From assembly GCA_028823995.1 (NCBI GenBank), contig JAPPFD010000020.1, positions 1 through 64,000 of the forward strand: 64,000 nucleotides of DNA, read 5' to 3'. Shown in pieces: positions 23,778 through 38,515 of this stretch. This DNA comes from a bacterium. GTDB lineage: Bacteria; Actinomycetota; Acidimicrobiia; Spongiisociales; ZC4RG35. Numbering within the stretch: the stretch's first letter is position 1; each line of letters begins with the position of its first letter. The notes beneath the pieces are model-generated. The model did not search any database, was not told the origin of the DNA, and saw only the letters and a list, made by a program, of their open reading frames with translations. The position numbers and the translations under genes are program-made.

Positions 23778-24759
23778 GATCCACCACTCGGTTGGAATAA
23801 CCCCACTCGTTGTCGTACCAGGCCAGGGTCCTAGCCAGGTTGGCGCCCAGGACCTCGGTGCCTCCCGAGTCGAAGACGGTGGAATGGGGATTGCCGATGA
23901 TGTCGGACGAGACGACCGGGGCTTCGGTGTACTCCACGATCCCGGCGAACCGCCCTGCGGCCTCGGCCCGCACGGTGTCGTTCAGTTCTTCGGCCGTGAC
24001 GTCCGCCGACAGTTCCACCACCAGGTCCACTATCGACCCATCGGCTACCGGCACGCGCATCGCCATCCCGTCCAGCCTTCCCTCCAACTCGGGAAGCACC
24101 TTCCCCACCGCCTTGGCGGCTCCGGTGCTGGTGGGAATGATGTTCTCGGTGGCGGCGCGGCTACGCCGAAGATCGGCATGGGGAACGTCGGCCAGCCTCT
24201 GGTCGTTCGTGTAGGCGTGCACCGTGGTCATCAGCCCGCGGCGGATCTCGAAGTGGTCGTGGAGGATTTTGGCGAGAGGGGCAAGGCAGTTGGTGGTGCA
24301 GGAGGCATTGGAGATGAGGGAGGCGTCCGGCCCGAGCAGGTGATCGTTCACGCCCAGCACCAGGGTCAGGTCGAGGGCGTCCTTGGGGGGAACGGTGAGA
24401 ATCACCCGCTTGGCGCCCGCCTCCAGGTGTTTGGTCAGGGCGCGGCGGGTGCGGAACACTCCCGTGGACTCCACCACCACGTCCACTCCCAGTTCGTCCC
24501 ACGGAAGCCGGGAGGGATCCGGTTCGCACAGCATGCGGATTTCATGTTGGCCGACCGTCATCACACCCTCGGCCAAACCGACCTCCTGATCCAGGCGGCC
24601 CATCACCGAGTCGTACCGGAGCAGGTAGGCCAGCACGTCGTCGTCCGCCAGGTCGTTGACAGCCACCACCTCCAGATGAGGCAGGCTTCGTTGGATGAGG
24701 ATTCGCAGCACCGAGCGCCCGATCCTCCCGAAACCGTTGATCGCCACCCTGGTCGTCAT
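23746..24759 (-). CDS. gap: Glyceraldehyde-3-phosphate dehydrogenase, active form
   Basis: This glycolytic enzyme oxidises glyceraldehyde-3-phosphate with NAD(P) and phosphate. The Rossmann motif GFGRIGR is at 9-15. The catalytic cysteine is Cys154 in SNASCTTN and the catalytic His is His181 in TVHAYT. The phosphate-binding STG (211-213) and Arg235 are conserved. At 337 residues it is normal length. It is the second gene of a two-gene unit: its ATG overlaps the stop of the divergent paralogue upstream by 4 nt (ATGA). Among the glycolytic enzymes, pgk and tpiA, often linked to gap, are not adjacent. Confidence 0.93.
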   Translation of the reverse strand: MTTRVAINGFGRIGRSVLRILIQRSLPHLEVVAVNDLADDDVLAYLLRYDSVMGRLDQEVGLAEGVMTVGQHEIRMLCEPDPSRLPWDELGVDVVVESTGVFRTRRALTKHLEAGAKRVILTVPPKDALDLTLVLGVNDHLLGPDASLISNASCTTNCLAPLAKILHDHFEIRRGLMTTVHAYTNDQRLADVPHADLRRSRAATENIIPTSTGAAKAVGKVLPELEGRLDGMAMRVPVADGSIVDLVVELSADVTAEELNDTVRAEAAGRFAGIVEYTEAPVVSSDIIGNPHSTVFDSGGTEVLGANLARTLAWYDNEWGYSNRVVDLIDRLAKLAP

Positions 24760-27511: not shown

Positions 27512-27585
27512 GGGGCTGTAGCTCAGCTTGGAAGAGCGCTTGCATGGCATGCAAGAGGTCACGGGTTCAAGTCCCGTCAGCTCCA
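27512..27585 (+). tRNA. tRNA-Ala (GGC)
   Basis: Acceptor GGGGCTG pairs with CAGCTCC, giving the G3-U70 wobble that identifies tRNA-Ala. The anticodon stem CTTGC/GCAAG closes ATGGCAT with anticodon GGC. The T-arm is ACGGG-TTCAAGT-CCCGT and the discriminator is A. CCA is not encoded. The 3' end is the integration site of the adjoining island. Confidence 0.95.
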
Positions 27586-27587
27586 CC
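27575..27587. other. attL core within tRNA-Ala
   Basis: CGTCAGCTCCACC forms the end of the T-stem and the acceptor 3' strand of tRNA-Ala plus two bases. It matches 38685-38697 exactly, so the tRNA stays intact after integration. The 232 nt from here to the first island gene (27588-27819) hold no gene I can support. Confidence 0.75.
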
Positions 27588-27819
27588 CGGGGGAAGAAGA
27601 TAGAGCAGGTCAGCAGCATGGTAGCTGGATTGGTTATCAGTTATGCTACCGGATATTCTCCTAAGCGTGTGATTCGCCGTAGGCCCGTTGCGCTCGCTCA
27701 GAAGGGGTTTCGATTGACAATGAGCCCATCGCCCACCTTCGCGGACCCTAACCCAAATCAGGAGATCTTCCGGGTTAGTCACCCAAGTGGCCGGAAATGC
27801 ACGACTAGGGTAACCCACT

Positions 27820-28875
27820 ATGGGGACGTCCTCCGAGTCCAGTGGTCCAGCAACGGTTGATCTGTTTTGTGGTGCGGGGGGCCTGTCCTACGGGATGCAG
27901 AAGGCCGGCGTCCACGTCGTTGCTGGAATCGATATTGATCCGGCCTGCCGTTATCCCTTCGAAGAAAACGTCTCGGCTCCGTTCCACCAGCGGGACATCG
28001 CTGATGTGTCGGCGGATTTCGTCGGGTCCCTTTTTCCCGAGACCGGCCCTCGGGTGCTGGCTGGTTGCGCACCGTGTCAACCTTTCTCGTCATACACCAA
28101 CGGTAGGGAACCCGACAGCGGGCAGTGGGGCCTGCTGGACCGCTTCGGCGCGCTCGTCGCCGAACTCAAGCCAGAAGTGGTCACGATGGAGAATGTCCCG
28201 CGTTTGACTGGTCGCTCGGTGTTCGAAGGGTTCCTGTCGGTTCTGAAGAAGGCTGGCTACCACTGCACACACAGTGTCGTTAGATGCGCAGCGTATGGGG
28301 TGCCGCAAACGAGGCCGCGTCTTGTGCTGCTGGCGTCGCAACTGGGGAGTATTGAGTTGGCTGCTCCCACTCACCCTGATGGCGGATGTGTAACTGTGAG
28401 GGACACCATTGGGCATTTGGAGTCGATACCCGCAGGAGGGGCTGACAAGGCTGATCCTATGCACAAGGCGAGTGGACTCTCCGAGAAGAACCTCCGGCGG
28501 ATACGCGCGGCGAAAGCCGGTGGAACGTGGCGTGACTGGGACGAGAAGCTGCGGGCTCCTTGCCACACCAGGTCCAGCGGTCGCACCTACACGGGTGTGT
28601 ATGGGCGGATGGAGTGGGACCTCCCCGCTCCCACCATTACTACCCAGTTCCATGGCTTCGGGAATGGACGATTCGGCCATCCCGAACAAGACCGTGCCAT
28701 TTCCCTCCGGGAGGGAGCCCTGCTCCAGACGTTTCCTTCGGACTACTCTTTCGTTCCCGAAGGTAACTCCGTGAAGATAGGCCCCATTGCTCGTCTGATT
28801 GGAAACGCTGTGCCTGTCAAACTAGGCGAAGCGATAGGTAAGTCGATTGTTGATCACCTAGAGGAGTTTTCGTGA
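27820..28875 (+). CDS. DNA (cytosine-5) methyltransferase, module 1
   Basis: This Dcm-type enzyme transfers a methyl group from SAM to C5 of cytosine in a specific site. Motif I is DLFCGAGGLS (14-23), motif IV is APCQPFS with catalytic Cys86, motif VI is MENVP, motif VIII is QTRPR, and motif X is LIGNAVP near the C-terminus. The target-recognition region lies at about 190-270. At 351 residues it is complete. Its stop overlaps the GTG start of the GHKL ATPase gene by 4 nt, so the two are coupled. The recognition sequence cannot be read from the protein. Confidence 0.92.
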   Translation: MGTSSESSGPATVDLFCGAGGLSYGMQKAGVHVVAGIDIDPACRYPFEENVSAPFHQRDIADVSADFVGSLFPETGPRVLAGCAPCQPFSSYTNGREPDSGQWGLLDRFGALVAELKPEVVTMENVPRLTGRSVFEGFLSVLKKAGYHCTHSVVRCAAYGVPQTRPRLVLLASQLGSIELAAPTHPDGGCVTVRDTIGHLESIPAGGADKADPMHKASGLSEKNLRRIRAAKAGGTWRDWDEKLRAPCHTRSSGRTYTGVYGRMEWDLPAPTITTQFHGFGNGRFGHPEQDRAISLREGALLQTFPSDYSFVPEGNSVKIGPIARLIGNAVPVKLGEAIGKSIVDHLEEFS

Positions 28876-30869
28876 GCGGCGACCCCAAGTATCAGATGAC
28901 CGTGAGCTTGAATGTGCTCCGCCATCTTGGCCTTGGGCTGTACTCGAACGTGGCCGCGGTTCTCTCGGAGGTGGTTGCCAATTCTTGGGACGCCGACGCG
29001 GAGCATGTTTGGATTTCCATCAATGCGCCGGAAGGCCGGGTGGTGATTGAGGACAACGGGCACGGAATGACAGTTGAAGACGCCAATCGGAAGTACCTAT
29101 ACGTTGGGTACGAGCGTCGGAACGACGCACCACTGACTCCTCGTTTCGGCCGAGCGGTTATGGGACGCAAAGGAATCGGCAAATTGTCCCTGTTCTCAAT
29201 CGCCCAAACAGTCCGCGTCGAAAGCGTTGCCGGTGGCCAGAGACACGGGTTTGTCATGGACGCGGTAGACATTGAAGAGAAGATTCGAGATGGCGGAGAA
29301 GGACAGTACGAGCCGCTCCCGGTGGCGACGTCTGAGATCGACCTGGGTAGAGGCACTCGTATCACCCTCACGGACATGAAACGTCAACTTCAATGGACGG
29401 GCAGAGCACTGCGGAGGCGCCTCGCCCGGAGGTTCAGCATCATCGGACAAGAGCACCGGTTCGCGATTACCCTGGACGACCACCCCATCACTGCGACCGA
29501 CCGTGATTACCAAGACAAAGTCCAGTACATTTGGACCTTCGGTGACCTCGGCAACGGCGTCGCCGCCACGGCCAGCAACCTTGAGCAGCAGGAGGAACGC
29601 TCTGGGGAGTTGGAAGGGCATCCCGACTGGGTGATTGATGGTTGGATCGGAACTGCCTCCATGGCCGGGCAACTCATAGACACGGAGACATCCGAAAGCA
29701 TCAACAAGCTAGTAGTCCTAGTGCGCGGGAAGCTCGCCCAAGAAGATATCTTGGAAGAGTTCGGCGAGGGCGGCCTATACACCAAGTACATGCTCGGCGA
29801 GATTCATGCCGATTTCCTTGACATGGACGACGCTGAAGACATCGCCACCACAAGTCGGCAGAAGCTCATTGAAGAAGATCCCCGCTACCAGGCCCTCAGG
29901 GAAAAGCTCCGAGAAGAGTTGAAACACGTCCAGAGTCAATGGACCAACCTGCGCAGATCACAGGGCACAGCAAGGGCCGTCATTTACCCGGGGATCAAAG
30001 AGTGGTTCACAGAATTGGACCCTGACCAGAAGGTCGCAGCTCGGCGGCTATTCGGTCGAATCAACGAGCTGCCGATTGAAGACGAATCCAACAGGCGACA
30101 ACTCATCGTGAGCGGTGTCCTCGCTTTCGAGAGCCTAAAGCTAAGGAACATGCTCCATAGACTTGATGAGATTTCGACGAAGAATCTCGACGTCCTTCAG
30201 CAGGTGTTTGTCCAACTGGATGACCTAGAGGCCAGCGCCTACTACCAGATAGCGAAGGAACGTCTACGGATTATACGGAAACTAACAGCGCTGGTTGATG
30301 AGGACGCCAAGGAGCGGGCGATACAAGAGCATCTATACAAGCACCTCTGGCTACTAGACCCATCCTGGGAAAGAGCGACTCACACCGAGCACATGGAGCG
30401 GAGCATCATGACCGCGCTCGACGAGGTATGCAATACGCTGACCGAAGAACAGAAGCGGGCGCGGGTGGACGTCAAGTACAGCACCAATGGGAACAAACAC
30501 GTCATTATTGAACTCAAACGTGCGGGGAAACGCATCAGTTCCACTGCCTTGAACGAGCAGGTGTCGAAGTATTACACCGCTGCCGAGAAAATCCTCTCCG
30601 ATGCCGGGCGGAGTAACGAGCCCGTTGAGATAGTCGTCGTTGTCGGCAGGCGGCTAAGCGATTGGGACGAAACCCCTGACAGTGAGAATCGTTTTCGCGA
30701 GATGCTCGCCGCGTCCCGAGCAAGGGTCGTGATGTACGACGAGCTAATCAACAACGCCCTGCAAGCTTACCAAGACTACGTCGATGGCGCGGAGGAGGCA
30801 GGCAGGGTGTACAGGCTGGTCCACAGCATCTCAGAACAGGACATAGAAGCGCTCAGCCCTACGGCCTAG
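28872..30869 (+). CDS. GHKL (Hsp90/MutL/MORC-like) ATPase with C-terminal nuclease-like region
   Basis: The N-terminal GHKL ATPase fold is clear. The N-box has Glu33 and Asn37 in EVVANSWDADA, the G1 box is EDNGHGM (60-66), and the G2 box is GRKGIGKLS (98-106). A long helical middle section follows. Around residues 525-560 a segment reads VDVKYSTNGNKHVIIELKR, which fits the D...E-x-K core of PD-(D/E)XK nucleases. MutL/MORC-like ATPases are known in restriction-modification operons beside C5 methylases, and are thought to drive DNA clamping or cleavage. The 665-residue protein is therefore the likely restriction component of module 1. Codons and length look intact. The nuclease assignment is motif-level only. 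Confidence 0.82.
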   Translation: MSGDPKYQMTVSLNVLRHLGLGLYSNVAAVLSEVVANSWDADAEHVWISINAPEGRVVIEDNGHGMTVEDANRKYLYVGYERRNDAPLTPRFGRAVMGRKGIGKLSLFSIAQTVRVESVAGGQRHGFVMDAVDIEEKIRDGGEGQYEPLPVATSEIDLGRGTRITLTDMKRQLQWTGRALRRRLARRFSIIGQEHRFAITLDDHPITATDRDYQDKVQYIWTFGDLGNGVAATASNLEQQEERSGELEGHPDWVIDGWIGTASMAGQLIDTETSESINKLVVLVRGKLAQEDILEEFGEGGLYTKYMLGEIHADFLDMDDAEDIATTSRQKLIEEDPRYQALREKLREELKHVQSQWTNLRRSQGTARAVIYPGIKEWFTELDPDQKVAARRLFGRINELPIEDESNRRQLIVSGVLAFESLKLRNMLHRLDEISTKNLDVLQQVFVQLDDLEASAYYQIAKERLRIIRKLTALVDEDAKERAIQEHLYKHLWLLDPSWERATHTEHMERSIMTALDEVCNTLTEEQKRARVDVKYSTNGNKHVIIELKRAGKRISSTALNEQVSKYYTAAEKILSDAGRSNEPVEIVVVVGRRLSDWDETPDSENRFREMLAASRARVVMYDELINNALQAYQDYVDGAEEAGRVYRLVHSISEQDIEALSPTA

Positions 30870-30899
30870 AGCCGCAGCAAAACAAGGACAGGAATCCAC

Positions 30900-31793
30900 A
30901 TGAAGCAATTGTCGGACTACAGCGACGCGCGTAGCAGGGTTACATGCACACACTGCGGTACCGGCCTTCATCCCCGTAACGAGAACAAGGATCACGTTCC
31001 ATCGAGATGTCTGCTTGATCGTCCGTTACCGGAAGACCTTCCCACCGTTTGGATATGCAGATCGTGCAACGCGTCGTTTTCCAAAGACGAGGAGTATTTC
31101 TTCGTCTTCTTAGCTGCCGTGCTCTCCGGCGACGCCCGCCCCGATCCAAGCCGTTTCCCCTCGGCAGCCTCGGCCACACAGCGGAGCCCTCGCTTCCGGA
31201 AGCTCATCGCACGAGCGCAAATACACCAGTTGCCGCTCAGGGACGAACCAGAGCTTCTCTGGCAGCCCGACATCGATCGGTTTGATCGCGTGATCACTAA
31301 GAACGCACGTGGGCACGTCCTTCACGAACTTGGCGAACCTGTGTTAGGCATGCCGTCCCGGATCCTGTATTGGCCTGTAAGCCGCATGTCGGCTGATCAG
31401 CGCGACACATTCGAGTTGGTATCGCTTGGACCCGGGTTGCCGGAGGTGGGGAGCAGGATGATGCAGCGCGTTTTGGGCCTGGAACCGCTCGTGAATGGTT
31501 GGGTTGTGGTGCAGGATGGCGTCTACCGGTACGCCGTCGTTCAAGGATCCGATGAACTGCTCGTTCGCACCCTAGTCAGAGATTACCTTGCGACCGAAGT
31601 CGCCTGGATCACTCGCGGGGGATGTTGTAGATCTCCCGAACCCCCGCAGAAAGCTGCGACAAAGGTGCAACGCATCGTCAAACAGAGTCACAGATGCAGT
31701 GCGGAGGGTGAGATACCATCAAGGTGGGTACCGAGTGTCTTCAATTGCTGCCACTGCGAGGGCGATGTGATTTTGCGAACTGCGTCTCGTTAG
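30900..31793 (+). CDS. HNH-like endonuclease-fold protein
   Basis: The N-terminal part has a treble-clef HNH-type arrangement: CTHC (Cys16, Cys19), DHVPS (Asp31-His32), then CRSCN (Cys53, Cys56, Asn57) with SKDEEYF. The remaining 200 residues are not recognised. Residues after about 237 (from ITRGGCC) look like low-complexity overrun, and the last codons lie in the left inverted repeat of the neighbouring cassette, so the native C-terminus may have been replaced. It lies 30 nt after the GHKL gene and probably belongs to module 1. Confidence 0.7.
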   Translation: MKQLSDYSDARSRVTCTHCGTGLHPRNENKDHVPSRCLLDRPLPEDLPTVWICRSCNASFSKDEEYFFVFLAAVLSGDARPDPSRFPSAASATQRSPRFRKLIARAQIHQLPLRDEPELLWQPDIDRFDRVITKNARGHVLHELGEPVLGMPSRILYWPVSRMSADQRDTFELVSLGPGLPEVGSRMMQRVLGLEPLVNGWVVVQDGVYRYAVVQGSDELLVRTLVRDYLATEVAWITRGGCCRSPEPPQKAATKVQRIVKQSHRCSAEGEIPSRWVPSVFNCCHCEGDVILRTASR

Positions 31794-32077
31794 GCGTTCT
31801 TGGTTGTGGGTGATCTCGACCACACGTTTGCACTAAAGGTGTGCCCACACCAGATTTCCCGTGGGCAGCCGCCACCAAATCGGGCGGGCAGGCAGGTTTG
31901 GGGTGGGGTTCGGATGTTCTCTGCCGAACGGTTGGTTTGCTTGCTGTTCCGACGCCTCATGGGGGATGCCGCCGGCGAACGGCACGCGAACGCTTGCTAT
32001 TGCGAGTCAGTGTTTCCCCAGGTCAGATGATAACGAACGCTTTGCGAACGTTTGAACGAACGGTTTGCGAACGTTTT
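31787..32077. repeat. Left copy of ~290-bp imperfect inverted repeat (IR-L)
   Basis: This stretch matches the reverse complement of 33924-34205. The outer ~85 nt are about 85% identical and include a 24-nt exact match (31814-31837 against 34155-34178). The middle is diverged. The inner ~90 nt match again, with GTGTTTCCCCAGGTCA shared and phased CGAACG iterons. The area from 31794 to 32333 has no gene I can support; its open frames are GC-driven and shift between the two copies. Confidence 0.8.
32032..32077 (+). repeat. Two tandem 23-bp iteron units with CGAACG every 11-12 nt
   Basis: Units 32032-32054 and 32055-32077 agree at 21 of 23 positions. CGAACG occurs at 32034, 32045, 32057 and 32068, one DNA helical turn apart. 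A further pair occurs at 31976/31987. The right repeat has the mirrored set: CGTTCG at 33928, 33940, 33951 and a pair at 33999/34010. The 47-48 nt gap between pair and array is kept on both sides. Confidence 0.8.
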
Positions 32078-32333
32078 GGACGGGCAATTCTGGGGGTTGA
32101 GGAGCAGATCGTCTTTTTCTGGCCGCTGCTCCTTGGGTGGGCTGTCCCTGGGCATCGTGGACTGGGGCCGTCTGGTGGTGGGTTGTCTCAGGTTTGCGGG
32201 ATGCCCGTTGTGGTGGCTGCTGGGCTGTCTCCTAGGACTATGTGGTGTCCCCGCCGGGCCGGTGAGTTCTTGATCCCTGTCCGGTTGGGCAGTGATGCCT
32301 CGGAGGTGGGCTAGGAGGTAGAGTGGGGAAGCC

Positions 32334-33266
32334 ATGGGGAATATCCATACGTTGGAGCCGGTCGATGTGCGGGTCTTTTGGCCTCATGAGGCCCACTGTT
32401 TCACGCCGTGGCTGGCCGAGAATCTGTCTTTGTTGGGAGCAGAATTAAACTTGGTCCTGGAGCGGGAGGGAGAGGAGATGACTCTGCCCGGCGCCGGGCG
32501 AGTCGACATTCTCGCAAGACAGGCCACCACCGGGGCCAGGGTGGTGATCGAAAACCAGTTGGGGTCATCTGACGATTCCCACTGCCTGCGCCTGTTGGGA
32601 TATGCAGCCAACGCGGAAGCCAACATTCTGGTGTGGGTGGCGCGGTACTTTAGCGACTACCACCGAAGCATCCTGTCATGGTTGAACGAGAGCGACAACA
32701 TCGCGGTTTACGCGGTGGAGGTGCGGGCTTTTTTGGTGGACGGTCGCAAGGTTGTGGACTTCGACCTGGTCGTCGAACCGCAAGCGGGAACAACCTCCAC
32801 TCCGCGCAGAAAGACGGCAAGCACCTACTATGCCGAGTTCTATCGCCCAGTGGTAGCGACGCTTCGGCGTTCGGGACTGCTTCCCGTGGGCCGGGGCGGA
32901 TTCCGGGGTCGGTATCGGTCGTTCCAGACTGGATACGAGGATGTTTATTACTCCGCTGAAATTTCCCAGGGACGGGCGGCGGCTGCGTTGGGAGTGTACG
33001 GGGACGACAGTCGGCACATCTTCCAAGCTCTCACTCGACACCGATACGAGATAGATGCGGAGCTGAACGGCGAGACTGAATGGCATCAGTACTGGGTGTG
33101 GCTTACAACCGAAGCGGCGGTTGATGACCCGAGTTCCATTCCCGATGAAGTTGGGGAGTGGCTCACTGAGAACCTGCTACGGCTAAGAGAAGTGGTACAG
33201 CCGTATCTGGACCGGGTGATGGCCGATCCAGTCACTTCGGGCGAGGATGCTGAGGAGCCAGGATGA
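32334..33266 (+). CDS. PD-(D/E)XK-like protein with DUF4268-type C-terminus
   Basis: The 310-residue protein has an N-terminal restriction-endonuclease-like fold. The pattern is GRVDILARQATTGARVVIEN-Q, giving Asp58, Glu73 and Gln75 as a D...E-x-Q variant core. Next comes LRLLGYAANAEANILVWVA and a His-containing helix, as in DUF4268-family proteins of defence loci. The C-terminal half (about 165-290), with TYYAEFYRPVV and ELNGETEWHQYW, also resembles DUF4268. The Lys of the classic motif is replaced by Gln, which some nuclease families tolerate. Gene and partner overlap by 4 nt and lie between the two inverted repeats. Function is inferred to be DNA binding or cleavage in defence; no known named system is recognised. 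Confidence 0.75.
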   Translation: MGNIHTLEPVDVRVFWPHEAHCFTPWLAENLSLLGAELNLVLEREGEEMTLPGAGRVDILARQATTGARVVIENQLGSSDDSHCLRLLGYAANAEANILVWVARYFSDYHRSILSWLNESDNIAVYAVEVRAFLVDGRKVVDFDLVVEPQAGTTSTPRRKTASTYYAEFYRPVVATLRRSGLLPVGRGGFRGRYRSFQTGYEDVYYSAEISQGRAAAALGVYGDDSRHIFQALTRHRYEIDAELNGETEWHQYWVWLTTEAAVDDPSSIPDEVGEWLTENLLRLREVVQPYLDRVMADPVTSGEDAEEPG

Positions 33267-33778
33267 GTGGGTTCCAGCGTTGGGCGTTGGGCAATCTCAC
33301 CGGAAACCTTAACAGAGGATTGTTTGCCGAGTGGCTTGTCGGGACGGCGCTTGGTGTCATCAAGGACGGCGACGCAAGGGCTGAGTGGGGTGCGTTCGAT
33401 CTGCGGTACGGGAATGTGACTATCGAGGTCAAAGCCTCTGGACGCAGCCAGGACTGGAATCGGGCCAGCAGGTCAACTCCGAGGTTCGATATCGCCCCCC
33501 GCAAATGGACATGGGACGCAGCGGCTGACACATGGAAACCTCTCAACCCGCCCCGTCGTCTCGCCGACGTATACGTTTTCTGTCTCCATAACGCAGAACC
33601 GGCGACCAATGAGAATGTTCAGGATCCGGACTGCTGGACATTCTGGGTAATCCCGACACGGAAACTCAACGAAGAACTCGGTGAACAGAAAAGCCTGGGG
33701 TTATCAACGCTGGATTCCCTCACGAACAAAACCCGCGTGGACCGGTCAGAGATCCGGTCTGTCCTAGACACTCTCTAG
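33263..33778 (+). CDS. Small PD-(D/E)XK-like protein, partner of the DUF4268-type protein
   Basis: I do not recognise the family. The 171-residue protein has GAFDLRYGNVTIEVKASGRS, that is Asp46 and Glu55-x-Lys57, an intact D...E-x-K core. Upstream Glu23 in NRGLFAEWLVG could be the fourth active-site residue. The rest is hydrophilic, with aromatic patches DVYVFCLH and WTFWVIPTRKL that look like beta strands of the same fold. The ATG overlaps the upstream stop (ATGA), so the two products are coupled and probably interact. No methyltransferase lies within the repeat-bracketed cassette. Confidence 0.72.
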   Translation: MSGFQRWALGNLTGNLNRGLFAEWLVGTALGVIKDGDARAEWGAFDLRYGNVTIEVKASGRSQDWNRASRSTPRFDIAPRKWTWDAAADTWKPLNPPRRLADVYVFCLHNAEPATNENVQDPDCWTFWVIPTRKLNEELGEQKSLGLSTLDSLTNKTRVDRSEIRSVLDTL

Positions 33779-33923
33779 GCCAGCAGCCAACCGAACGTCC
33801 CTCAAGTGGCACAGGACATCAGACCCACCCTCTCCGTGTAAACAGGGACATCCCACCCCTGGAAAGAACGGGCAGAACGGGATCTACGGTGTTCATGCCC
33901 ACCGCCATGCAACAACCCCAGCT

Positions 33924-34205
33924 AAAGCGTTCGTTAAAACGTTCGCAAAGCGTTCGTTTGGGGTTTGACCTGGGGAAACACCAACTCGAAACTGCAGGCG
34001 TTCGCAAAGCGTTCGCCGCGAACTTTACCCGTGAAGAGCAATGCGGGTATATGCACGAACGCTTCGAAAGGAAAGTCCGAACTCTTCCTGATGTCAGCCT
34101 GCGCGGCTGGGAATCGCGGGTGGTTGCCCACGCGAAATCGGGTGTGGGCACTGGTTTAGTGCAAACGTGTGGTCGAGACACCCCACAACGGAAAACGCCT
34201 TACGA
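33924..34205. repeat. Right copy of ~290-bp imperfect inverted repeat (IR-R)
   Basis: The reverse complement matches IR-L at 31787-32077 (see that entry). This copy keeps one complete 23-bp unit (33936-33958), identical to the consensus, plus a 12-nt partial unit. Phased CGTTCG sites are at 33928, 33940, 33951, 33999 and 34010. No target-site duplication is evident at the outer edges. From 33779 to 34456 I see no gene; apparent frames on both strands are products of the repeats. Confidence 0.78.
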
Positions 34206-34227
34206 CAGGCCATGTTCATGAGCCAAA

Positions 34228-34246
34228 CCGCCATTGACGGTGGCGG
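34228..34246. terminator. Perfect hairpin CCGCCA-TTGACGG-TGGCGG
   Basis: A 6-bp stem with a 7-nt loop is followed by CCTTT. It lies just outside IR-R and could act as a weak terminator for either direction. The T-run is short, so this is uncertain. Confidence 0.35.
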
Positions 34247-34456
34247 CCTTTCACATCCCTTTGGATCCACCTCGGTCGGATCCGGCCCGGCTACATGAAG
34301 GTGGTACGCTGTTCGTTACCTCTCTCGCTCTGCGGTAATGTCCAGCAGCATCTTCCGACACAGTTCAGGGAATCACGGTGGAAGGGTTAGTTGTTGAGGT
34401 GGCCTGCTCGCTGTACTCGGGCGGCAGGCTGGGCATATGCGTCATTCACATTGGGT

Positions 34457-34822
34457 TCATCCATCCTTCTCTCCTTCCGCCTTCTTTTCCCGTTTCCTCT
34501 TGGACCCCATTAGCCGGTCGGCCTCCTCCATCCCTTTGCGAGAGATGCCCAGACTGTTAGTAGACACGGGCTTTCCTCCCTGAATACGAGCCAGTTGGTA
34601 CATGATCTCAGCCTGGAAGACCAAATCTAGCCGCCCTTGGTGCTGTCCCGCCCGGAGCAGTAGGACGTGAGGGAGAACTGCTCCCACGCGACTCGCCTCT
34701 ATATGCGCCATCATCATACGTCTAACCCGTCGGCGGACCCACCAGCCCTTAATCAGGTCATAGACCATATGCACCATGACGCCCAACAGAAAGGCACCTG
34801 CCAGCACAGCCGATTCGTTCAT
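34457..34822 (-). CDS. Small membrane-anchored hypothetical protein
   Basis: I do not recognise this 121-residue protein. An N-terminal hydrophobic segment (about residues 4-24, AVLAGAFLLGVMVHMVYDLI) is followed by a strongly basic stretch WWVRRRVRRM, giving a typical N-out/C-in anchor. A helical cytoplasmic part and a Lys-rich tail (GSKRKREKKAEGEKDG) complete it. A strong Shine-Dalgarno-like GGGGGAGA precedes the ATG, which supports it as a real gene. It sits between the repeat-bracketed cassette and vsr and may belong to either. Confidence 0.6.
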   Translation of the reverse strand: MNESAVLAGAFLLGVMVHMVYDLIKGWWVRRRVRRMMMAHIEASRVGAVLPHVLLLRAGQHQGRLDLVFQAEIMYQLARIQGGKPVSTNSLGISRKGMEEADRLMGSKRKREKKAEGEKDG

Positions 34823-34898
34823 GTCTCTCCCCCTTCACCTCCTCATCTCAAATCGAACGGCCTTCCGGGGAGGCTGCCGATGGGCCTGGAGTGTGAAT

Positions 34899-35312
34899 CT
34901 ACGTGTTGCATACGATAGTCTCGACTCGGTCGGCTGCGGTGGCGGCGTCTTCGTGTTCCCAGATGCGTATCACTGTCCAGCCCGCCTCGGCTAGCAGGTT
35001 GTCGGTTTTCCGGTCGCGTTCTACGTTGGTGTCGAGCTTTCGGCACCACCAGTCCGCGTTGGATTTTGGTGAAGATCCGTGTTCGGGGCATCGGTGCCAG
35101 AAGCATCCGTCGACGAATACGGCCACTTGGGCTCGGGTGAAAACGATGTCGGGTCGGATTCTGCCGATCTCGGGGAGGGGCATGTTGACGCGGTACCGGA
35201 GTCCTCTCCGGTGCAGTTCGCGCCTGATGACCATTTCTGGGGCTGTATGCGCGCTCCGTACTCTGCTCATTTGGGCCGATTTGGCGGCTGTGGGTGGCAG
35301 TGGCTGTGGCAC
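34899..35312 (-). CDS. vsr: Very short patch repair (Vsr) endonuclease
   Basis: Vsr nicks 5' of the T in T:G mismatches that arise when methylated cytosines deaminate, so it protects the sites of a C5 methylase. The 137-residue protein has the N-terminal SRVRSAHTAPEMVIRREL signature, catalytic Asp55 in IRPDIVF, and the FVDGCFWHRCPEHG block with His73, Cys75 and His78. A conserved WEHE occurs near the C-terminus. It is full length. It is divergent from the adjacent methyltransferase, with about 95 nt between that holds both promoters; the likely partner is that enzyme. Confidence 0.93.
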   Translation of the reverse strand: MPQPLPPTAAKSAQMSRVRSAHTAPEMVIRRELHRRGLRYRVNMPLPEIGRIRPDIVFTRAQVAVFVDGCFWHRCPEHGSSPKSNADWWCRKLDTNVERDRKTDNLLAEAGWTVIRIWEHEDAATAADRVETIVCNT

Positions 35313-35408
35313 GACCCAGACGGTACCCGGTCGTGTCGGTGGGCCGTGCTATATTTGCAGCCATTGGAATGACATGAATGTGATTCTACTTTGGACGAGG
35401 GAGAGCCT

Positions 35409-36479
35409 GTGAGGCTGATTGATCTTTTTGCCGGGTGTGGTGGTCTCACCGAAGGTTTTCACCGGGCCGGGTTCGATCCGGTTCTGGCAGTGGAATGGGA
35501 CCGCTCGGCGGCGGCTACCTACGCGGAGAACTTCGGCGACCATGTGATCTGTGACGACATTGCTAAAGTGCCCGAAGAGGCTTTCGCCGGCGCGGATGCT
35601 GTGGTGGGTGGTCCTCCATGTCAGGGTTTTTCGAATCTTGGTACACGTAACCCTGACGATCCCCGGAATCTGCTGTGGCGCGAGTATGCGCGGGTGGTTC
35701 GTGTGACCCGACCGGCGGTGTTTGTGTTGGAGAATGTACCGCAGTTCCTCAAGTCCGACCAGTTCGGGATGCTGGTGGATTGGTCCCGGGACGGCCCCTT
35801 GCGTGGGTATGAACTCACGGCAGGGGTGCTGAACGCGGCGGACTATGGGGTGCCGCAGCGACGTAGCAGGGCTATTGTCGTCGGTTCCCTACACGGGCCA
35901 CCTTCTCTTCCGCCGCCCTCCCACGGTAAAGATAGTACGGTTGCCCGGTGGGCGACAGTACGCGACGCCTTTGCGGGTATTCCCCTCGAGACCGGTCCCA
36001 CGCTGCTACCAGCATGCCGGTTGGAGTCCGGGATACCCGGTCCGTTCAAGGTAACCGATCTGCACCTCTCGCGGAGACCACGGGAGCGGTCAATGAGACG
36101 CTACGAACTCATACCGCCCGGCGGGGGACGATTTGACCTCCCGGATCATCTTCTCCCCGACTGTTGGAGGAACAAACCGACTGGCACCGTCGACGTGATG
36201 GGACGGATGGAATGGGATAAACCGTCGCTGACTATCCGCACCGAGTTCTTCAAGCCGGAGAAGGGCCGCTACCTCCACCCCCAGTGGGATATCAATGATC
36301 CCGACAAGTGCGTGAACCGTTCGATAAGCCACTGGGAGGCAGCGCGGCTCCAATCTTTTCCTGACGATTTCGTGTGGTGCGGCAGCAAGATCGAAATCGC
36401 TAAACAAATCGGCAACGCCGTGCCCCCGCTTCTGGCAGAGGCGGTAGCACGCCACCTCATAACCACGGTGCTGGTCTAG
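35409..36479 (+). CDS. DNA (cytosine-5) methyltransferase, NgoMIV-type system
   Basis: This Dcm-family methylase has motif I LIDLFAGCGGLTEGF at the N-terminus, motif IV GGPPCQGFS with catalytic Cys71, motif VI LENVPQ, motif VIII PQRRSRA, and motif X QIGNAVPPLLA. The GTG at 35409 is taken as the start because GAGGGAGAG lies just before it and the protein then begins MRLIDLF as usual; a TTG 18 nt upstream is less likely. The 356-residue enzyme should protect sites from the endonuclease encoded 2 nt downstream. Vsr is divergent on its other side. Confidence 0.93.
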   Translation: MRLIDLFAGCGGLTEGFHRAGFDPVLAVEWDRSAAATYAENFGDHVICDDIAKVPEEAFAGADAVVGGPPCQGFSNLGTRNPDDPRNLLWREYARVVRVTRPAVFVLENVPQFLKSDQFGMLVDWSRDGPLRGYELTAGVLNAADYGVPQRRSRAIVVGSLHGPPSLPPPSHGKDSTVARWATVRDAFAGIPLETGPTLLPACRLESGIPGPFKVTDLHLSRRPRERSMRRYELIPPGGGRFDLPDHLLPDCWRNKPTGTVDVMGRMEWDKPSLTIRTEFFKPEKGRYLHPQWDINDPDKCVNRSISHWEAARLQSFPDDFVWCGSKIEIAKQIGNAVPPLLAEAVARHLITTVLV

Positions 36480-36481
36480 GT

Positions 36482-37204
36482 GTGAAGAACACCGTACCCC
36501 AGTCGATCCTTGACCTTCTCGGATGGCGCACCAACGGCAAGCCCAATATCGCGGACGGAGCCAGCAACCCCAGTGTGAATATCGCCAAAGCGGTCTTCGA
36601 ACAACTCGGGGTCTCCAGATCGACCACAGCTCCAGGCCAGACAGCCGGAAGCAGGTTCGAAGCAGCGATAAGACAGACTCTGGCCGACCGGCTACCTCTG
36701 ATAGATCCACTCCGCAACTGGGATGTTGGTAGTCGGGAAATCACTCACTTCGTGCAATACACGCATCTGGCCCGCATCAGGGAAGTAGCAGAATCGAACC
36801 CCACCCTCAGATCGTCACTGGGTACCGACTACCTCATCAAACCGGACATTACGATCGGAATCGGAACCGGTCCCCGTCTACATCTGCATGCTGCGGTGTC
36901 ATGCAAGTGGACCATTCGCTCGGACCGTGTCCAGAACATCCGCCACGAGGGTGTCGTGCTAACTAGACACAGACGAGGCCGCCAACCCCACTTTGTTGCT
37001 GTCACAGCAGAACCACTCCCCTCACGGCTGGCTGCCATCGCCAGAGGGACAGGCGAACTGGACTGCGTCTACCACATAGCACTACAGCAGCTCCAGAACG
37101 CCTGCAATAATAACCCCAGAGCATTAGACACCCTCCATGAGCTAATCGAACAGGGCCGACTCCGCCCGATCGGTGAACTGCCCGACGTGATCGCTCGCTA
37201 TTAA
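36482..37204 (+). CDS. Type II restriction endonuclease, NgoMIV-like
   Basis: The region DYLIKPDITIG (Asp122) and SCKWTIRSDRVQNIRHE (Ser140, Lys142, Arg146-Asp148-Arg149, Glu156) reproduces the active-site and recognition block of NgoMIV, including the 14-residue Lys-to-Glu spacing. TAEPLPSRLAAIARGTGELDCVYH is also characteristic. NgoMIV is a tetrameric enzyme that cuts G/CCGGC, so GCCGGC is the predicted target. At 240 residues it is shorter than NgoMIV, but the core is present. GTG start, 2 nt after the methylase gene. Confidence 0.88.
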   Translation: MKNTVPQSILDLLGWRTNGKPNIADGASNPSVNIAKAVFEQLGVSRSTTAPGQTAGSRFEAAIRQTLADRLPLIDPLRNWDVGSREITHFVQYTHLARIREVAESNPTLRSSLGTDYLIKPDITIGIGTGPRLHLHAAVSCKWTIRSDRVQNIRHEGVVLTRHRRGRQPHFVAVTAEPLPSRLAAIARGTGELDCVYHIALQQLQNACNNNPRALDTLHELIEQGRLRPIGELPDVIARY

Positions 37205-37303
37205 GGCCGAGTACCTGGGCAACAGGCCGCGAGTGTGCGATATCGGTTGGGAGATCGCTGGGGTCATCTCACGAGGACTCCGGGGTGGCTCGGATGTAGG
37301 TGT

Positions 37304-38515
37304 TTATGAAACCTGAGCGTCTGCGACATTAAGCGAGTCAGGTGTTTTGACAGGTTTGATGTATTCGGCCCATTGTTGCATGAGGGGTTGTCTGATTTCG
37401 TAGAGGTCGGATCGGGCGTAGGCTGCTTCGACGCCTTTGACGGTGTGGCCTAGGGCTTGTTCGGCTACTTCGCGTGGCACTTGGGTTTCGCTGCACCAGT
37501 CTCTGAAGCTGCTGCGCATGCCGTGGGGAACGCATCCTATGTTGTTTTCTTTGCAGAGTTTGCTCATTGTTGCGTCGGAGAGGGGACGTCCTGTTGGTGA
37601 TGGGAAAATAAGCCCTAGGGGGTTACGAAATTCGCTGTGGACCTGGTCGAGGATTTCTAGGGCGGGGGTGCTGAGGGGGACTCGGTGGGGTTTGCCGGTT
37701 TTGGTGCGCTGTCCTGGGATCGTCCATGTGGAGGATGGGAGGTCGATTTCGTCCCATGTGGCGAGGCGGGCTTCGCCGCTTCGAACCGCGCAGAGGGTTA
37801 GGAACTCGAAGCAGTAGATAGTGGCGGGCCATGCGTTGGTCGCGCGGATGGTTGCCAGTGCTTGGGAGACTTTGCTGTGGTGCAGGGCTTTGAAGTGTCG
37901 ACGTTGGGTGTTGTTGGTTCCTAGTGCTGCTCTGATCCGGTCGTCGGCTGGGTTGTCCGTCCGGTAGCCAGATGCTATGGCCCACTTCATGACGGCGGCG
38001 ACTCTCTGCAACAGCCGTCGGGCGGTTTCCGGTTTGGTGTGCCAAATCGGCGCGAAACAGGCCATGACATCGGCACTGGTGATGTCCGACACCAGTTTTC
38101 CTCCCAGTGTGGGGTAGGTGTAGGTTTGGAGGCTGGTTTCCCAGATTCTTCGGCTTCGGCTGCCCGGGCGCCATTTCGTGGAGTGAAGTTCTATCACCTT
38201 GGCAGCTGCTTCGCTGAAGGTGGGTGTGGTGGCACCGCGGGGGTTTCGGCCTTCTTCGACGGCTTGGCGGTTTTTGAGGGCTCGTTTTCGTGCTTCGGCG
38301 AGGGTGACGGCTGGGTAGCTGCCCAGTCCGAAGTTGGTTTCTTTGCCGTTGATGCGGATTCGTTGTGCCCAGGTTTTGGAGAGTCGGTTGTTGATTTTGG
38401 TGGGTTTGACTAGTAGCGTGAGGCCGTGTCCGCCGCGGCCGTCGCCGTATCGTCCGGGTCGTTTGACGGTTTTGACGAAGGTGGCTGATAGAGTGGAGGG
38501 TCGCTTCACCTCCAT
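37304..38515 (-). CDS. int: P4-type tyrosine integrase of the island
   Basis: This site-specific recombinase would integrate and excise the island at tRNA-Ala. The N-terminal DUF4102-like arm-binding region contains LTLLVKPT and WAQRIRINGKETNFGLGSYP, typical of P4-like integrases. The catalytic residues are complete: Arg245 (AVRSGEARL), His331 and Arg334 (HGMRSSFRDW), His357 (LGHTVKG) and Tyr366 (AYARSDLY). At 403 residues it is full length, so mobility may be retained. It is transcribed inward, away from the right att site. Confidence 0.93.
   Translation of the reverse strand: MEVKRPSTLSATFVKTVKRPGRYGDGRGGHGLTLLVKPTKINNRLSKTWAQRIRINGKETNFGLGSYPAVTLAEARKRALKNRQAVEEGRNPRGATTPTFSEAAAKVIELHSTKWRPGSRSRRIWETSLQTYTYPTLGGKLVSDITSADVMACFAPIWHTKPETARRLLQRVAAVMKWAIASGYRTDNPADDRIRAALGTNNTQRRHFKALHHSKVSQALATIRATNAWPATIYCFEFLTLCAVRSGEARLATWDEIDLPSSTWTIPGQRTKTGKPHRVPLSTPALEILDQVHSEFRNPLGLIFPSPTGRPLSDATMSKLCKENNIGCVPHGMRSSFRDWCSETQVPREVAEQALGHTVKGVEAAYARSDLYEIRQPLMQQWAEYIKPVKTPDSLNVADAQVS

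Follow-up and report, generated by a model that had tools for sequence, protein, structure and literature searches.

Two genes overlapping by 4 nt, ORF1 and ORF2, lie between two long imperfect inverted repeats in the window, the stretch of 64,000 nucleotides that was analysed. Aligned over 286 bases, the repeat arms are reverse complements at 72% identity (E = 3e-33), which bears out the arrangement described in the first-pass annotation. They share an identical block of 24 nt (TCTCGACCACACGTTTGCACTAAA). Over the outer 92 nt, an ungapped alignment gives 83% identity, in line with the figure of about 85% over 85 nt given earlier, and three blocks further in, 53, 35 and 23 nt long, are 81, 94 and 96% identical. 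The repeat length of 280-290 bp first proposed describes real arms but not the whole repeat, since the unit reaches about 200-240 bp further out, giving an element of about 2.8 kb (Table 1). From outside to inside, an end is made up of an outer segment, a GTGGG arm, the core CTCGACCACACGTTTGCACTAAA, a hairpin (TGCCCAC..GTGGGCA), the block CCCCAGGTCAG, CGAACG iterons and alpA. In the window, the alpA gene inward of the left arm is decayed (52% identity, E = 2e-7 by tblastn), and intact relatives match Phage_AlpA (2.6e-14). As noted previously, no transposase is found inside the window cassette, nor any other mobility enzyme, and no structured RNA was detected in the repeats, all Rfam matches in the window and in three related loci being tRNAs.

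Table 1. Positions of the cassette and its parts in the window.
Feature	Position	Strand	Evidence or remark
Host HNH gene, 3' end and stop replaced by cassette	30900..31607	+	alignment with three plasmid homologues
Whole cassette (best estimate)	31608..34434	.	left: HNH homologues stop at Trp236 = 31607; right: R2 match
Left outer unit, weakly conserved	31608..31814	+	R2 (outer-unit model) match 31556-31785; HNH homology to 31607
Left terminal repeat unit, core to iterons	31814..32080	+	arm limits by profile (nhmmer) 31792-32066
Left invariant core CTCGACCACACGTTTGCACTAAA, candidate nic/recombination core	31815..31837	+	near-invariant in 31 ends; MOB-F motif
Left hairpin TGCCCAC...GTGGGCA	31842..31867	+	stem invariant in alignment
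Left iterons, CGAACG, spacing 11-12 bp	32032..32077	+	
alpA remnant, PF05930-type regulator/excisionase	32135..32302	+	tblastn
ORF1, 310 aa, DUF4268 nuclease-type, PADLOC PDC-S11 candidate	32334..33266	+	
ORF2, 171 aa, PD-(D/E)XK-like (EVK motif)	33263..33778	+	
Right terminal repeat unit	33924..34178	-	arm limits by profile (nhmmer) 34201-33924
Right iterons	33924..34015	-	
Right hairpin	34125..34150	-	stem invariant in alignment
Right invariant core	34155..34177	-	near-invariant in 31 ends
Right outer unit	34178..34434	-	R2 match 34206-34434

ORF1 matches DUF4268 in Pfam (E = 8e-7) and, over the whole protein (residues 3-293), PADLOC PDC-S11 (2.6e-54). It thus belongs to PDC-S11 by profile, the present case being distinguished by the second PD-(D/E)XK-like gene and by the mobile cassette that carries the pair. 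ORF2 has no match in Pfam and is considered PD-(D/E)XK-like on its EVK motif only, its AlphaFold model (pLDDT 37) being too poor for a structure search. The same pair is present on contig C27 of the same genome and on G005:C88. Between copies, dN/dS is 0.15-0.45 overall (ORF1, 0.15-0.26; ORF2, 0.26-0.30 against other copies), and by this measure both genes are under purifying selection. In the G005:C88 copy of ORF1 (L059 430-1392), a shifted stretch covers the predicted ENQ active-site region and this copy is probably inactive. An ORF2-like nuclease domain also ends a protein of 283-284 aa adjoining an HNH gene (L134 1168-2022, L122 1168-2019), an arrangement without DUF4268 that gives the domain a different partner. 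The two nuclease-type genes of the window are passengers and probably form an anti-phage system.

The cassette sits within a defence island extending from tRNA-Ala(GGC) to a P4-type integrase gene (window 27512-38515, integrase at 37304-38515) and carrying genes for Dcm, a HATPase restriction-type protein, HNH, Vsr, Dcm and NgoMIV. The same tRNA-Ala is found beside integrases with a different gene set in G002:C73 (L114). The genes for Dcm, the ATP-binding protein, HNH and Vsr (window 27820-31607) recur on alphaproteobacterial plasmids (L136, L137), a recurrence suggesting that these neighbours constitute one system with Vsr and Dcm.

A family of cassettes with common ends

The left window repeat alone matches 16 places in the host genome. 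With a profile built from 11 ends, the same ends were found in 5 of the 6 genomes of the genus (MAGs of Acidimicrobiia) and on one conjugative contig of G058, from another family of the same order; apart from this contig, no strong-scoring end was found in other genera in a 395-genome sample of the class. Matches in an exact-core scan of 84,980 species were confined to MAGs of this group, and viral contigs gave none. The paired ends are convergent in all 11 cases and lie 0.9-4.5 kb apart. Besides the gene pair of the window, their cargo includes another PDC-S11 gene together with a PDDEXK_4-like gene of 344 aa (L063), a HEPN-RES protein (L058), a Type IIG-type restriction enzyme (L060) and, in L018 and L056, an SLH protein of 655 aa. 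AbiEii-like genes and a Cas_GSU0053 (Csb1) gene are located just outside cassette ends (L021 668-1627, L023 3274-4119, L068 1205-2431). Two stretches, at G000:C1:35020 and G000:C4:86683, are identical on two contigs and perhaps represent an assembly duplicate.

The simplest copy, L062 (1.6 kb), holds alpA and a three-repeat ribbon-helix-helix-like (RHH-like) gene and nothing else. The RHH-like assignment is a weak one (phage repressor profile, 7e-6; low-confidence model with strand-helix-helix order), and the AlphaFold model of the protein (pLDDT 50) is too poor for a structure search. RHH remnants with stop codons are present within other copies, suggesting that alpA and RHH may be ancestral and that cargo was added later.

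None of the family copies has a transposase of its own, the only ones present belonging to nested IS110 and IS21-type copies inside elements; one such IS110 lies just inside the L018 cassette end (1568-2808) and is absent from the orthologous L056. A search of the 6 genus genomes, 60 relatives and the 395 class genomes, in which MAG gaps are possible, gave no autonomous element or IS with the same ends. Within elements, left and right ends are mostly 61-83% identical, and an end usually resembles its partner no more closely than it resembles the ends of other elements, indicating that the ends reassort.

Insertion sites and element boundaries

Direct comparison of occupied and empty sites was possible at the locus between the genes for quinone oxidoreductase (qor) and ATP synthase, where G000 and G003 hold a decayed copy with one end left. 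This site is empty in G005:C45, with contiguous flanks at 24245/24246, as well as in G004 and G001, which have 58 and 249 bp there. In the window, the HNH gene beside the cassette has no stop of its own, its frame running 57 residues into the repeat past the Trp236 at which its homologues end. This truncation point implies that the outer segment (about 200-240 bp) is part of the insert in the window; the copy at the qor locus ends no more than about 31 bp from its core, and long and short forms of the ends therefore exist. With the same ends around varied cargo, no transposase of its own, an empty site in relatives and the truncated HNH gene, the window element is very probably a non-autonomous mobile cassette, as the first-pass annotation had put forward in one of its two readings.

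The limits of the repeat unit were set from the near-identical left and right ends of L058, which differ by one mismatch over about 273 bp. The identical stretch opens precisely with TCTCGACC and runs to just past the iterons, with homology ending within the GTGGG...CTCGACC core; the unit so defined begins with TCTCGACC and ends with GCTTAG, and no inverted match is present between its tips. GTGGG is found just outside the core in 27/31 ends against a background of 2.3%. A target duplication of at least 4 bp at the core boundary is absent in 9 of 10 pairs, and the sole 4-bp match, GATC in L018, lies within the palindrome that spans this boundary. Since the element ends are old, as their mostly 61-83% identity indicates, target duplications could have eroded.

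The L060/L020 pair was discarded as a case of recent transposition, its 99.5% identity ending within the outer unit at a contig end. The outer unit was likewise discarded as a separate insertion target, because its copies almost always adjoin a core, although several ends do not have it. No tRNA genes were found as targets at cassette ends.

Origin of the ends and candidate modes of movement

By its gene content, contig G058:C47 is a conjugative element, encoding a TrwC relaxase (1.3e-63), a coupling protein, an AAA_10 ATPase of VirB4 type and ArdC. A repeat unit with alpA on this contig is 75% identical to L062 over about 560-570 bp and stands upstream of the TrwC (MOB-F) relaxase gene on the same strand, the unit being separated from this gene by 1.2 kb in which alpA lies; no RHH gene is present in G058. 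Further iterons precede the relaxase, the ribonucleotide reductase and the transfer operons of the contig. On these sequence resemblances, the source of the cassette ends appears to be the alpA/transfer control region of a conjugative element, although the G058 unit could instead be an isolated cassette end that inserted at this place. The possibility raised earlier that the repeats are fragments of a longer known element is thus retained for the origin of the ends and given up for the cassettes, which are not fragments of it. No MOB-F relaxase was found in the genus, and any such enzyme must therefore act in trans.

In this taxonomic order, two conserved motifs, GACAGACGRGTGCAC and GACACACGCATCTGCAAC, are found 26-51 bp upstream of MOB-F relaxase genes (L162-L182), and these are probable nic regions. 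The two motifs and the cassette core all fit the pattern GAC(C)A[CG]ACG-N1-4-TGCA[AC], which is matched in 14/21 MOB-F upstream regions (sense strand, with none antisense) and in 29 cassette ends, with one other match in 730,858 positions; 7/21 upstream regions do not have the motif. As the pattern was drawn up post hoc, after inspection of both sets, this correspondence is strong but is no proof. The nic site of R388 is GGTGCGTATTGTCT/ATAG (PMC4814116), and the cassette core on the opposite strand reads CGTGTGGTC. As in a MOB-F oriT (R388; PMC3264647, PMC4814116), a candidate core motif is accompanied by a nearby hairpin, helper repeats and an RHH-like gene. Unlike the R388 oriT, the cassettes have two inverted copies as element ends and no relaxase gene, and their hairpin lies about 20 nt or more from the candidate nic site, compared with 8 nt between the inverted repeat and nic in R388.

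The leading mechanism, proposed tentatively and at less than even chance, is that a MOB-F relaxase acting in trans mobilises the cassettes at their inverted, oriT-like ends. The core would be the relaxase recognition and nic site, and AlpA and/or the RHH protein would bind the iterons. The relaxase would come from a visiting MOB-F conjugative element and would transfer the cassette after cutting it at the outer edges of its two inverted ends. A parallel exists in AAV, whose inverted terminal repeats are cut by Rep, an HUH nuclease, with integration at a look-alike target. The cassettes would share with these repeats inverted ends, a hairpin, iterons and HUH nicking, an analogy of mechanism only, the sequences being unrelated. 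In conjugation, one oriT is normally used, or two in direct orientation, and inverted pairs are not. Insertion by a relaxase is proposed because minimal nic-like targets are known to suffice for DNA integration by TrwC, which is helped by TrwA, a protein of the Arc-type (RHH) class (PMC3264647). Against the relaxase mechanism, an autonomous transposase-bearing partner may simply be missing from the MAGs.

Such a partner is the basis of the main rival to the relaxase mechanism, a mobile insertion cassette moved in trans by the DDE transposase of an unsampled autonomous element, with AlpA and RHH as passengers or regulators. Long terminal inverted repeats, dispersed copies, the lack of an internal transposase and the empty site would all be expected, and both mobile insertion cassettes and TIME composites move in this manner (PMC6542083; PMC13367494). 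It is nevertheless judged unlikely, as no transposase-bearing element with these ends was found in the 6 genus and 395 class genomes, the core boundary is without target duplication, and the most conserved block lies within a boundary-spanning palindrome, unlike typical IS tips. Mobile insertion cassettes such as MIC231 of Bacillus cereus (Chen et al. 1999, cited in PMC6542083) share with the present family passengers between inverted repeats, no transposase and an expected movement in trans, and differ from it in that the ends here are compound, about 270-500 bp long, with hairpin, iterons and alpA, and have no known partner transposase. Like TIME composites (TIME-COMP; PMC4133298, PMC13367494), the cassettes hold cargo flanked by two unit copies, roughly comparable in size to those of TIMEs, but the unit here lacks short inverted repeats at its own tips, is always convergent and shows no duplication.

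Site-specific tyrosine recombination at att-like half sites, with AlpA as directionality factor and a P4-type island integrase acting in trans, has a small probability. It would account for alpA inside the ends, for P4-type integrases near several copies (at 3 kb in the window, at 340 bp in L020 and at about 1 kb in L069) and for the partly palindromic core, of which one arm falls outside the unit. However, the two ends of an element differ in the spacer between the arms whereas recombinase overlaps must match, and P4-type islands have direct, not inverted, ends. Less still can be said for a dispersed repeat that promotes only homologous recombination or gene conversion, with cargo swapped at fixed sites and no dedicated enzyme. 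The reassortment of ends, the near-perfect identity of the L058 ends, which could reflect gene conversion, and the occurrence of one left or right flank with different cargo (L018, L072) are in its favour, yet it explains neither the insertion at the qor-ATP synthase site, empty in relatives, nor the constant convergent orientation, and it is very improbable. Finally, the other reading of the first-pass annotation, that the repeats are paired regulatory or recognition sites of the two-gene nuclease system, has hardly any probability left and was rejected because, even if the exact ORF1+ORF2 pair has so far been found only between such repeats, most repeat pairs enclose unrelated genes, and ORF2 relatives occur elsewhere with neither the partner gene nor the repeats.

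As a whole, the explanation combining a mobile cassette, ends of conjugative origin, a relaxase acting in trans and nuclease passengers is the best available and stands at about even odds of being right. It is doubtful, though possible, that these cassettes represent a new kind of element in which cargo between inverted oriT copies is inserted by a conjugation relaxase in trans. The cassettes are a genuine family of transposase-less mobile elements in which defence-type genes are enriched and whose ends are unusual and of conjugative origin. Turnover of defence genes is fast, and how single systems jump between islands is often unclear; here, each cassette contains one system between reusable ends, without a transposase. 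Conjugation relaxases would, if the ends are oriT-derived, be movers of chromosomal defence cassettes and, if this is true, conjugative elements would seed recipient chromosomes with small interchangeable defence cassettes.
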